From Pseudomonadota bacterium (GTDB taxonomy: Bacteria; Pseudomonadota; Gammaproteobacteria; Burkholderiales; Eutrophovitaceae): a DNA stretch of 64,000 bases. The stretch covers positions 1 through 64,000 of the forward strand of contig JAQBTV010000007.1 of assembly GCA_027624715.1 (NCBI GenBank), written 5' to 3'. Both the position numbers and the translations under genes were made by a program. Under the pieces are notes generated by a model. The model was not told the origin of the DNA and did no database searches. It worked only from the letters and a program-made list of their open reading frames with translations. Positions 46,743-55,626 of this stretch are shown in pieces (position 1 is the first letter of the stretch; each line of letters starts with the position of its first letter).

Positions 46743-47897
46743 ATGAATAGTATTCGCTCCCTCACAATGCTCGCAGGCTTCATGCTAGCCTGCGTGCATG
46801 TAACGACTATTGCTGCGGACAACATTCAAGAGAAAATTAAAAATACAGATCAGAAAATACTGAAGGAGCAGAAAAAAATAAAAGAAGAGGAAGATAAACA
46901 AAAAAAAGCAAAACAAGAACTCAGCAAAACAAAAAAAGAAATCGACAATTTAGATAGAAACTTAAATCAATTATCAAAAAAAGAAAAAGTGCTGCTTGGC
47001 GATCTGAAGGCGCTGGAAAAAAAAGAAGACAAGCTTCAATCTAGCATCACTGATGAAAAGATTCGTTTATCTCGGCTAATAAAACGCACCTATATTTTAG
47101 GGTACTCGCCTGAAGCTACGCTCACAAGTAGCTCCTCAGCTGATAGCAAAGCATCTACTTTCTATCTCAAAAAGATCGGCCTGCAACGATCTGAAATCAT
47201 CAAAAATTTTAATGCGAAAATTACTGAAATTGATCAACTTCAAGATATGAAGCAGAGCATAAGAAGAGAATTAAAAAAAATAAAAAAGGACACGAGTAAA
47301 CAAAAAAGTGCGGCGGAACGTAAAAAACAAAAAAAATCGTTTGAAATAGATGGTTCAAAAACACGGGTAAAACGTAGCGAGCAAAAAATTAAGGAGGAAA
47401 ATAAACGACTCATGCAATTATTTGCAGAACTTGAAAAAAGTAAAAAAGAGCGCATAAAAAACAATAGCTTACCGGACAGAAGCCTTATCGGGAAACCATT
47501 TCAAGCGCTGAAAGGGAAACTTAGGCTTCCTGCCCTAGGTACAGTTACTGCAAAATTTGGGCAAAGAAGAGTGGGGAGCGAACTTCCTTGGGAAGGCATA
47601 TTTATATCGTCCAGCCCAGGCAATAGTGTTAAGTTAATAGCCGGAGGCTCTGTAGTTTATTCCGACTGGCTAAGAGGGTTTGGAAATTTAATCATCGTTG
47701 ACCATGGTAAAGGCTACTACAGCCTTTATGGCAATAACGAATCCATCTGGGTTAGAGAGGGTGATCAACTCGCAGCTGGGGACCAATTGGGAACTGTTGG
47801 TAATAGTGGGGGTCACACAGCACCTGGGGTGTATTTTGAGGTACGACACAACAGTAAACCTCTAGACCCAATGGAATGGGTTACTATTACTAACTAA
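46743..47897 (+). CDS. EnvC-like murein hydrolase activator, degenerate LytM (M23) domain
   Basis: 384 aa: signal peptide (about 1-25), long Lys/Glu-rich coiled coil (about 28-240), then a LytM fold. The metal ligands of active M23 peptidases are absent: the HxxxD position reads WEGIFISS and the HxH position reads YFEVRHNS. This is the E. coli EnvC pattern, in which a degenerate LytM domain activates amidases and the coiled coil binds FtsX. ftsEX are encoded at 30025-31568. It lies 9 bp after gpmA and 64 bp before ctpA. Confidence 0.85.
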   Translation: MNSIRSLTMLAGFMLACVHVTTIAADNIQEKIKNTDQKILKEQKKIKEEEDKQKKAKQELSKTKKEIDNLDRNLNQLSKKEKVLLGDLKALEKKEDKLQSSITDEKIRLSRLIKRTYILGYSPEATLTSSSSADSKASTFYLKKIGLQRSEIIKNFNAKITEIDQLQDMKQSIRRELKKIKKDTSKQKSAAERKKQKKSFEIDGSKTRVKRSEQKIKEENKRLMQLFAELEKSKKERIKNNSLPDRSLIGKPFQALKGKLRLPALGTVTAKFGQRRVGSELPWEGIFISSSPGNSVKLIAGGSVVYSDWLRGFGNLIIVDHGKGYYSLYGNNESIWVREGDQLAAGDQLGTVGNSGGHTAPGVYFEVRHNSKPLDPMEWVTITN

Positions 47898-51539: not shown

Positions 51540-52433
<894 letters not shown>

Positions 52434-52557
52434 TTAAATGCCTTATCGTGGCGTTCTAATTTTAACCGACTTATTGTATTTCGAGCCAGTACCTACTATT
52501 GCGCTACTTATCCGTTTAAAATACGACTCTCTTAAAATACATTTTTCTTCTTCACGA

Positions 52558-53712
52558 ATGAATAGTAGACGTTTTTTCTTATTGCTGCTGTTCTTACTCA
52601 CTTCTATTAGTGCGTTCGCCAAACCGGATAAGACCGTCAGCTCTAGGGGTCAAGTTTATGTCTTAGGCGACCTATCGAGCGGAAGCATCATCAGTAAGAA
52701 AAACGCATCTCGAACTATTGCTGCCGGGCCCTTGACGAAACTGATGACGTTATATGTTATTTTCTCCGCCCTCGAGTCTGGAGACATTCGTTTAAACGAT
52801 AAAATAAAAGTATCCGAGATTATTTCTAACGTACCCGGGCCTCGCATGTTCCTATCCGAAGGAGATCGCGTCAAAATCGAGGACCTCGTCAAGGCCATAA
52901 TAATCTATGGCGCTAACGACGCATTAATGGCACTTATTGAGGAAGTTTCAGGGGCCGAGTCTACATTTGTAGCAACGATGAACAAAAAGGCAAAGTCAAT
53001 TGGTTTAAGCTCTTCACGCTTCGTCGGTGCTTTTGGACAAAAGGCGAAGCAAAGTCGCACCACTGCGTCCGATTTATATCGACTATCAGTCGCTATCATT
53101 ACAGACTTTCCGCAATATTACCCCTACTTTAAATTACAAAAACACGAATGGCAAAGCATTACCCAACACAGCCCCAATAGTTTACTGGGTAGGGATAAAC
53201 ACAATGACGGACTCATACTAGGAAACATACCCACCATCGGGCTTCTTGGATCTATTTCTAGCGATCGAAATGGGCGTCGAATACTGTTGGTGCTAGGTGG
53301 CGTAACGCCTAAACGCACTTTTCCTCTAGAGGCTCAAAAGCTGATAAATCAAGCTTTTGAGGAATTCGAAACGATCCTGCTATTCAAGTCGAACACATAT
53401 CTTGGTCAAATCACAGTTTCGCAAGGTAAAGATGAGGTTATCGATATTGGGTCCTCGAAAAACATTTCCGTTACGATCCCAAGAGGGACGAAGGAAGATC
53501 TCAAAGTACACATTGAAAGCATGCAACCTCTCATCGCACCAGTTAAATATGGGCATATTGTTGCCAAACTTACCGTACGCCTAGAAGACAAGACAATCTT
53601 AACGTCAGATCTCATTACTCTAAAAGAAGTACCACGAGCAGGAATTTTAATTAGAGGCTGGAGAGAATTAAAATCTTTCGTACTTCAACTGATAGGATTC
53701 TTAAACAATTAA
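52558..53712 (+). CDS. DacA-like (PBP5/6-type) protein lacking catalytic motifs
   Basis: 384 aa from MNSRRFFLLL with a signal peptide (cleavage near AFAK), a peptidase S11-type domain, a C-terminal beta domain (about 270-355) and a C-terminal amphipathic anchor, the layout of DacA. Gene position (before ybeD-lipB-lipA) is that of dacA. All three D,D-carboxypeptidase motifs are gone: SxxK reads P-L-T-K (AAGPLTKLMTLYV), SxN reads G-A-N (IYGANDALMALIE), KTG reads I-L-G (HNDGLILGNIPTIG). The frame is intact, so it is a pseudoenzyme rather than a decayed gene. A binding or scaffold role is inference. Confidence 0.85.
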   Translation: MNSRRFFLLLLFLLTSISAFAKPDKTVSSRGQVYVLGDLSSGSIISKKNASRTIAAGPLTKLMTLYVIFSALESGDIRLNDKIKVSEIISNVPGPRMFLSEGDRVKIEDLVKAIIIYGANDALMALIEEVSGAESTFVATMNKKAKSIGLSSSRFVGAFGQKAKQSRTTASDLYRLSVAIITDFPQYYPYFKLQKHEWQSITQHSPNSLLGRDKHNDGLILGNIPTIGLLGSISSDRNGRRILLVLGGVTPKRTFPLEAQKLINQAFEEFETILLFKSNTYLGQITVSQGKDEVIDIGSSKNISVTIPRGTKEDLKVHIESMQPLIAPVKYGHIVAKLTVRLEDKTILTSDLITLKEVPRAGILIRGWRELKSFVLQLIGFLNN

Positions 53713-53744
53713 TAGTCAAATAAGAAAAAAGTAAAATATCTATC

Positions 53745-54023
53745 ATGGGCACTCACCAAACTGAAAAAACCGAGGGTATCGAATATCCACTCTCGTTCCC
53801 GATTAAAGTTATAGGACATTCAACGATTAACTTTAAGGAAGATGTGCTAGAAATTCTGAGAAAACATGCACCCGATGTCGATGGCCACGAGGTAACCACC
53901 AGCATGAGCAGCAACAAAACTTACATCAGCCTGACATGCACCTTCCTCGCTGAATCACGGGAACACCTAGAAACTATCTATGCCGAACTTAAGGCCAGCC
54001 CATCCGTTTCGATCGTTATTTAG
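53745..54023 (+). CDS. DUF493 / YbeD family protein
   Basis: 92 aa with the YbeD signature EYPLSFPIKVIG and the terminal KASPSVSIVI; ACT-like small fold. Found between dacA and lipB in many proteobacteria. Function unproven; a regulatory link to lipoate synthesis has been suggested from position only. Confidence 0.88.
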   Translation: MGTHQTEKTEGIEYPLSFPIKVIGHSTINFKEDVLEILRKHAPDVDGHEVTTSMSSNKTYISLTCTFLAESREHLETIYAELKASPSVSIVI

Positions 54024-54062: not shown

Positions 54063-54674
54063 GTGATTGTTAAAATGCTTGGTTTAATAGATTATGAGGA
54101 ATCACTCCAGAGGATGAGAGAGTTCACACTTAAACGCTCTGAAAAAGAAGAGGATGAATTGTGGGTCGTCGAACATCCTCCGGTGTACACATTAGGATTA
54201 AAAACAAAAATAGAAAATCTTCCTCATGTTGAGCAGAAAATACCGCTGATTCAATCTGATCGCGGAGGTCAAATAACCTACCACGGACCCGGCCAAATCA
54301 TCATATATACATTGCTTGACCTTAAAAGACTGAAACTATCCGTTAAAGGAGCCGTTAGATTATTGGAGCAAACCGTTATTAATTTACTATCATCGCTTGG
54401 CATTAAGGGTAATGGAGACGAAGCGCGACCTGGGATTTACGTTCAAGGTAAAAAAATAGCATCCTTGGGGCTTAAAATTAGAAACGGATACTCATATCAC
54501 GGTGTCGCCTTAAATGTTGATATGGACCTTAGTCCATTTGAGCAGATTAATCCGTGCGGATATGCCAATCTAAGTGTCACGCAACTCAAAGATTTAGATG
54601 TTAATCTGTCCATTGATGACATCAGTCAGCGGTGGGTTGATCAATTTCTCGTATCCTTTGAAGATAAAATTTAA
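54063..54674 (+). CDS. lipB: Octanoyl-[acyl-carrier-protein] transferase LipB
   Basis: Transfers octanoate from ACP to lipoyl domains. Motifs: [43 protein letters not shown] (catalytic Lys) and [13 protein letters not shown] (catalytic Cys). 203 aa from a GTG with AAGG about 9 bases upstream; an ATG four codons later is possible. Followed by lipA after 7 bp. Confidence 0.95.
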
Positions 54675-54681
54675 TACCAAT

Positions 54682-55626
54682 ATGAATACCAAAAAAATCA
54701 GAGAAACAGGGTCACAGAAAACCGCAAAAAATCCGATCAAAATACAACTGACTGATCCTCTCAGGAAACCCGATTGGATACGTGTCAAGCTTCAGACGAG
54801 CATCAAATTTCAAGACGTCAAAAATAAACTTCGCAAAAGCTCCTTATACACCGTTTGTGAGGAAGCGACCTGTCCAAACATCGGAGAATGTTTTTCTAAA
54901 GGAACGGCTACGTTCATGATTTTGGGAGACCTATGTACACGAAGGTGTCCATTTTGCGATGTTGCACATGGTCGGCCCAATGGCGTTGATGAAGCCGAAC
55001 CAGGGAGGCTTGCTAGTACCATTAAAGATATGGGTCTCAAGTACGTGGTGATCACAAGCGTGGATCGCGATGACCTAAGGGATGGCGGCGCAGCACATTT
55101 CTCCGCCTGTATCAAAGCTATTCGCTCGGTCTCGCCAAATATCAAAGTTGAAATACTTACCCCTGACTTCAGAGGTCGGCTTGATACTGCGATTCGTTTG
55201 TTAAGTACCCAACTACCAGATGTTATGAACCATAATCTAGAGACCGTTCCTCGACTGTATAAACAAGCACGGCCCGGAGCCGACTACCAGCACTCTCTTG
55301 ATTTGCTACAGCGATTTAAAAAAACAAACCCCAGCGTAGTCACTAAATCTGGCGTTATGGTTGGGCTCGGCGAAACCGATGCTGAAATCGTCGAGGTCAT
55401 GCGCGATTTAAAAAAACACGAGGTAGATATGATGACGATTGGACAGTATTTACAACCGACTAAAGGGCATCTACCCGTAGAACGTTATGTTCACCCTGAC
55501 CAATTTCGCCGATTCGAACAATTAGGACTCTCAATTGGGTTTAAACATGTTGCATCCGGGCCATTAGTTCGGTCCTCCTACCATGCTGACGAGCAAGCTA
55601 ACGCGACTATCGCTCGAGATAATTGA
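54682..55626 (+). CDS. lipA: Lipoyl synthase LipA
   Basis: Radical-SAM enzyme that inserts two sulfurs into octanoyl groups. Auxiliary cluster [12 protein letters not shown], radical-SAM cluster [13 protein letters not shown], and the C-terminal RSSYHADEQ with conserved Ser. 314 aa from [10 protein letters not shown]. Its 3' end overlaps the convergent glycosyltransferase gene by 20 bases. Confidence 0.97.

Follow-up and report, generated by a model that had tools for sequence, protein, structure and literature searches.

A probable DacA (PBP5) pseudoenzyme under purifying selection in a genus of Burkholderiales, with similar erosion in other families of the order

It has long been asked why Gram-negative bacteria carry several low-molecular-weight penicillin-binding proteins (PBPs) when knocking them out has only weak effects. 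The serine D,D-carboxypeptidase chemistry of these proteins requires the residues of three motifs – SxxK, SxN and KTG – and in active enzymes SxN, KTG and a neighbouring loop hold the substrate. The closest described relatives of the protein considered here are PBP5 and PBP6a of E. coli (DacA and DacC; family S11), which share the two-domain fold and C-terminal helix of its predicted structure; whereas active members carry SxxK, SxN and KTG, however, our protein has PLTK, GAN and ILG.

The closest laboratory parallel is PBP5(S44G), a dead E. coli PBP5 with cellular effects (PMC5596342). This variant is reported to be mostly missing from midcell and to fail in complementation (PMC2909392), to worsen shape on expression (PMC4916385), and to self-associate with higher FRET, the phenotype being ascribed to the presence of the protein and not to its inactivity (PMC5596342). 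Dead PBP5 is thus not inert in E. coli; nor is it automatically a good septal scaffold, since S44G was mostly off midcell and failed to complement. S44G is a single engineered change in E. coli, whereas the changes described below are natural and affect three motifs, two of them genus-wide. A second precedent is provided by the degenerate LytM proteins EnvC, NlpD, ActS and DipM, which PMC10336132 and PMC8360153 present as inactive relatives of cell-wall hydrolases kept as regulators; these differ in family and fold, being M23 and not S11. A search of the open-access literature, judged by titles and the openings of abstracts, found no natural DacA pseudoenzyme. The family itself is a known one: what would surprise a specialist is the recurrence of the loss together with continued constraint.

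The window, by which we mean the whole stretch of 64,000 nucleotides that was analysed, comes from a genome (G000) of genus g1 in family f1, the g and f codes denoting genera and families within one order. The genus is a small-genome betaproteobacterial one and, from the names in the public records of its relatives, probably marine. The dacA-type gene at 52558–53712 (forward strand) is an open frame of 384 amino acids; an upstream ATG at 52438 lies in the same frame, and the start at 52558 agrees with the starts of orthologues. The product begins with a hydrophobic, signal-peptide-like segment (residues 1–24; 52558–52629), such a hydrophobic start being common to the six orthologues described below. 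It matches Peptidase_S11 (PF00768) at 129.6 bits against a cut-off of 27.6 and PBP5_C at 63.5 bits against 21.2, the latter match (PF07943; G000:C7:53365-53637) marking the C-terminal beta domain at 53365–53637, and residues 32–362 align with a solved Pseudomonas PBP5-type enzyme. Because the Pfam name is D-alanyl-D-alanine carboxypeptidase, routine annotation as an active enzyme is probable.

Alignment with PBP5-type enzymes of solved structure and with motif-intact DacAs from Burkholderiales places P58-L-T-K61 at SxxK (52729–52740), G118-A-N120 at SxN (52909–52917) and I220-L-G222 at KTG (53215–53223): the nucleophile Ser of SxxK, the SxN motif and the KTG motif are all lacking. A preliminary description of this DNA had read the same three replacements in an intact frame, with the S11-like core and the C-terminal beta domain remaining, and each of these readings is confirmed. 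The description had also asked whether intact motifs might lie elsewhere in the protein, and a scan turned up no intact set: the sole SxxK is SQGK at 288, inside the beta domain, the two SxN-like triplets, at 205 and 300, both lie off the motif position, and none of the six genus orthologues has a KTG-like triplet elsewhere. Judged from its residues, the window's DacA homologue is very probably not an active enzyme. Position 58 is encoded by CCC in the window, by CCT and CCA in two orthologues, by TCT (Ser) in two and by GCT (Ala) in one, and a one-base route from Ser to Pro is therefore plausible, as had been proposed; the exact change proposed, TCC to CCC, goes beyond what these codons show.

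The gene order is argB (51540–52418, reverse strand; Pfam AA_kinase), a conserved divergent neighbour, followed by dacA, then ybeD directly downstream (53745–54023; DUF493), lipB (54063–54674; LplA-B_cat) and lipA (54682–55626; Radical_SAM, LIAS_N), the last three on the forward strand; the gene names are those we take to apply, and the Pfam matches back them. This synteny upholds the earlier designation of the gene as a positional DacA orthologue. Among the 178 records from a plasmid search, identity stayed below 60% (best 33.5%), and there was no close copy.

A search of all nine genomes of the genus found full-length orthologues in six, the window's included; all six have open frames and match both Peptidase_S11 and PBP5_C. 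In G001 and G008 the matches run over a TAA that is the terminal stop, and the proteins are two to three residues shorter. The three genomes without a dacA match (G003, G004 and G005) likewise have no lipB match, from which we conclude that the locus is probably unassembled there; these three carry no weight in what follows. The Ser of SxN is Gly in 6/6 orthologues and the Lys of KTG is Ile or Met in 6/6, so that, by these two residues, the catalytic loss is genus-wide. The SxxK position is less uniform: three orthologues have PLTK, L035 has ALTQ and has thus lost both Ser and Lys, and L034 and L036 keep SLTK. The nucleophile Ser is accordingly gone in four of the six, and the motif losses differ in age; the three catalytic losses claimed in the preliminary description stand for the window, while across the genus the loss of Ser holds for those four only.

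Gly118 and Ala119 are invariant in all six orthologues and use four and three different codons, those of Gly118 being GGC, GGC, GGT, GGG, GGT and GGA; the residues of the third motif vary more (I/M, L/M/V, G/S). Given these codon differences, the replaced residues are common to several species and have been kept through synonymous turnover, and the presence of the same changes in separate assemblies of the genus excludes assembly error.

The losses extend beyond the motifs. Thirteen intact Burkholderiales DacAs agree at 90 positions. All six genus members retain the same 38 of these; another 26 are missing in some members and the remaining 26 in every one, among them Q117-S118-G119, K220-T221 and H166-Y167, together with N157, T159, L161 and P162 in the same loop as H166-Y167. 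Conversely, the six agree at 39 positions whose residue is shared by no more than one of those 13 intact DacAs. These figures bear on whether a different or residual chemistry persists – acyl transfer or hydrolysis by Thr60/Lys61, or by the Ser kept in two orthologues. The SLTK of L034 and L036 and the invariance of T60 within the genus are what such activity would call for, but KTG Lys and SxN Ser are missing in 6/6, L035 has neither Ser nor Lys at SxxK, and 26 of the 90 invariant residues, H166-Y167 and Q117-S118-G119 among them, are lost throughout; we regard this explanation as improbable.

Structure modelling, which the preliminary description had proposed as a way to inspect the active-site cleft, gave a prediction that is PBP5-like over both domains (mean pLDDT 87.2, pTM 0.81); the model is weak evidence on the cleft itself, because an alignment of PBP5-like proteins favours a PBP5-like look. 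Residues 363–383 (53644–53706) are predicted as a C-terminal helix with pLDDT of about 61–74, amphipathic to judge from a hydrophobic moment of 0.56 over an 18-residue stretch. Together with the signal-like N-terminus this helix would suit export and anchoring. The top structural match is E. coli PBP6 (3itb; Z 38.8, rmsd 2.1 over 343 residues, 31% identity), with PBP5 entries tied within 1 Z unit. The resemblance brings to mind a substrate-protecting decoy, a protein that binds pentapeptide ends without cutting them and so shields them for transpeptidases. Such a role has been suggested for PBP6a, which in PMC4916385 seemed carboxypeptidase-inactive and possibly protective in muropeptide data, a suggestion that recurs in PMC5596342. 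Among the residues lost here, however, are the substrate-holding ones of SxN, KTG and the neighbouring loop, and we think it quite unlikely that the protein works in this way.

Selection on the gene was assessed by pairwise GY94 fits, made with our own script, for the 15 pairs among the six orthologues. Omega ranges from 0.109 to 0.396 and all pairs reject omega = 1 (likelihood-ratio statistics 33 to 145); values are 0.27–0.40 in the six close pairs and 0.11–0.19 in the nine distant ones, where dS is above 2 and estimates are less reliable. Stop-making point changes make up about 3.3% in the gene, and on a rough, unsimulated reckoning about 16 stops would be expected neutrally along the path between the window and L037; none was seen inside the protein. 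Across species the gene has kept its frame open under purifying selection, and the neutral dN/dS with degraded orthologues that the preliminary description had held against itself is not what the data show, omega being below 1 in every pair.

This constraint is nonetheless weaker than that on intact copies. The intact dacA of g4, another f1 genus represented by four genomes, has omega of 0.064–0.094 over six pairs (dS 0.68–2.56), so that constraint on the g1 gene is two to four times weaker than on intact f1 copies, depending on the divergences compared. Among the genes compared along the paths from the window to L037 and to L033, dacA has the highest omega (0.396 and 0.294, respectively), against 0.038 and 0.032 for argB, 0.183 and 0.215 for ppn, 0.164 and 0.281 for lipB, and 0.316 and 0.212 for ybeD; fits for wfaF against L034, L036 and L035 did not converge and were left out. 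In the DacA tree the stem branch of the genus measures 1.60, compared with 0.59 in the marker tree, and the grouping of the genus DacA with intact f1 DacA, although not recovered in the free tree, is not rejected (p-AU 0.375).

Sister genus g3 is relevant here. In all three of its genomes (G010, G012 and G014; loci L100, L101 and L099) dacA is missing from the argB–ybeD junction: the matches to the two genes lie about 125–180 bases apart in a neighbourhood that is otherwise conserved. A PBP5_C match is likewise missing from all three, which are 66–81% complete with the locus itself assembled. In the marker tree g1 and g3 group together (support 96/94), in an alignment in which 8 of the 17 rows are less than half filled. 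The catalytic loss may be older than the split between g1 and g3, or g3 may have lost the gene separately.

A further gene distinguishes these genera from their relatives. In all five intact f1 genomes (G009, G011, G013, G015 and G016) a gene that we call dat adjoins dacA, between it and ybeD (for example L044:6659-7513, L042:5893-6735 and L045:3796-4683); its best NCBIfam matches are to D-amino-acid transaminase, below the curated cut-offs. It is missing from the gap between dacA and ybeD in the window (53713–53744) and absent from g1 and g3, where best matches are 27–33% identical and G004 and G007 have none. We considered whether a dead DacA makes dat useless and rejected the idea as a general rule: dat persists (48–62% identity) in each of the nine f18 genomes, in the two eroded genomes of f2, and in G037 and G085, and G029, with intact DacA motifs (L009), has no such match. 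Elsewhere, in G066 (C119:12938-13758), the dat next to an intact dacA falls into two overlapping matches, one of them with an internal TAG, and may be broken.

The observations on g1 and g3 permit a reading in which relaxed selection has left the protein as a remnant: with the reduction of the genome its activity would have become dispensable, the active site would have decayed first, and the gene would be heading towards absence as in g3, with the residual constraint reflecting only the avoidance of harmful envelope misfolding. Omega raised some two- to fourfold over intact f1 copies, the long stem in the DacA tree, the disappearance of the gene from a conserved locus in 3/3 g3 genomes and the loss of its usual downstream neighbour, dat, from both genera are all as this reading would have them. 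It accords poorly with the lack of a single broken frame in six orthologues whose synonymous divergence reaches saturation, with the conservation of the motif-2 replacements through synonymous turnover, and with the eroded copies of f2, f18 and f19 described below, which have omega similar to that of intact ones. We consider decay towards loss rather unlikely, and it is the main rival to the explanation that follows.

That explanation is of a maintained, membrane-anchored pseudoenzyme acting by binding or self-association, to which we would give about an even chance. Purifying selection, open frames, conserved motif-2 replacement residues and constraint in other eroded lineages suggest maintenance; weaker constraint than on intact f1 copies, a g3 without the gene at a conserved locus and Ser kept in 2/6 orthologues argue against it. 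The maintained pseudoenzyme of the preliminary description is thus borne out as to lost residues, open frames and omega below 1, and qualified by the weaker constraint; the peptidoglycan- or divisome-binding scaffold suggested there stays conjectural. We envisage a vertically inherited DacA (PBP5) locus whose product, probably no longer able to act as a serine D,D-carboxypeptidase, would stay folded, be exported to the periplasm and be anchored by its C-terminus. There it could do non-catalytic work, self-associating and perhaps binding partners or cell-wall precursors at the inner membrane, whether to occupy or to present them, as an adaptor or a competitor, while the trimming of stem peptides would be left to DacB and a PbpG-type enzyme.

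Candidates for that trimming are present. A second, active-type S11 gene had been suggested as worth seeking, and G000 indeed has a PbpG-type S11 gene whose motifs are intact (SVTK, SEN, KTG), beside a motif-intact S13 DacB (SVMK, SSN, KTG). PbpG-type motifs are intact in 9/9 genomes of the genus; S13 is matched in seven of the nine, with intact motifs in all four that were read. G002, which is 95% complete, has no S13 match, and its PbpG-type gene is the sole S11/S13 match with intact motifs. S12 matches, which could include other D,D-peptidases, occur in 16 of the 17 f1 genomes. Loss of L,D-transpeptidases was entertained as a correlate and dismissed, YkuD being matched in 17/17.

Evidence that erosion of DacA is not peculiar to g1 comes from an order-wide sample of 300 genomes of at least 90% completeness. 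Outside g1, 44 genomes had a best S11 E-value, among the matches listed, above about 1e-65 and were taken further; searched with PBP5_C, 20 of these yielded a DacA-type gene and 24 did not. The motifs could be aligned in 18 of the 20, and all 18 are without at least one catalytic residue, a result that is expected and gives no rate because the genomes were picked by low score. By the same token the screen misses single-residue losses such as that of G126. Two f19 genes, those of G153 and G239, could hardly be aligned and entered neither the motif counts nor the tree; from the tree we also omitted G059, G017 and G033, as duplicates of rows that it already contained.

The eroded genes differ in extent of loss. 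The nine f18 genes have all lost the Ser of SxN and the Lys of KTG, and five of the nine the Ser and Lys of SxxK too, while all three motifs are gone in each of the four aligned f19 genes. Two f2 genes have SLTK, NAN and MAG or MTG; G085 (f24) has SLTK, SAN and QTA, G037 (f22) SLAK, SAN and MSG, and G059 (f44) ALTQ, SAN and KAG, these last three keeping SxN. From their motif residues, the eroded proteins of f2, f18, f19, f22, f24 and f44 are putatively inactive. The f19 proteins of G034, G080, G121 and G184 (L135, L131, L133 and L139) are very divergent, motif-less DacA-type proteins. Ten comparison genomes from f2, f22, f24 and f44 comprise seven with all motifs and three with eroded ones; the DacAs of G126 (L151; ALTK, SGN, KTG), G226 (L152; ALTQ, SAN, KTG) and G039 (L153; HLTK, SAN, ATG) are possible intermediates of erosion.

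How often the motifs were eroded is a question on which the gene tree, with its long branches, cannot decide: the placement of all 24 eroded rows in one clade is not rejected (p-AU 0.326). Independence therefore rests on the coexistence of intact and eroded copies within families, which is seen in f1, f2, f22, f24 and f44 (no intact copy was found in f18 or f19). Such coexistence points to at least five separate losses, provided that eroded genes have not been transferred between families. For eroded pairs from f18, f2 and f19, fitted on stop-to-stop frames, omega is 0.055–0.127 in five of six, like that of intact copies, and 0.071 in the one f19 pair tested (G080–G121); the sixth pair, G152–G264 of f18, was saturated and dropped. 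We tentatively propose, with somewhat less than even confidence, that several Burkholderiales families have separately converted DacA, a main D,D-carboxypeptidase, into a non-catalytic protein of the envelope, conserved for its fold and its dimer or partner surface and not for its chemistry.

If this is true, recurrent conversion would be the S11 counterpart of the degenerate LytM regulators, and a catalytically dead yet selected PBP5 homologue would allow the protein's structural role to be told apart from its chemistry, supplying natural variants ready for testing which surfaces matter. Should decay under relaxed selection be the right reading, the same genes would record how D,D-carboxypeptidase activity is shed, step by step, in reduced genomes.

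The window holds one further protein of related interest. An EnvC-like M23 protein is encoded at 46743–47897, in which the metal-binding histidines, inspected by eye, are apparently missing, as in EnvC; a stretch of 7 kb may encode two non-catalytic cell-wall proteins.
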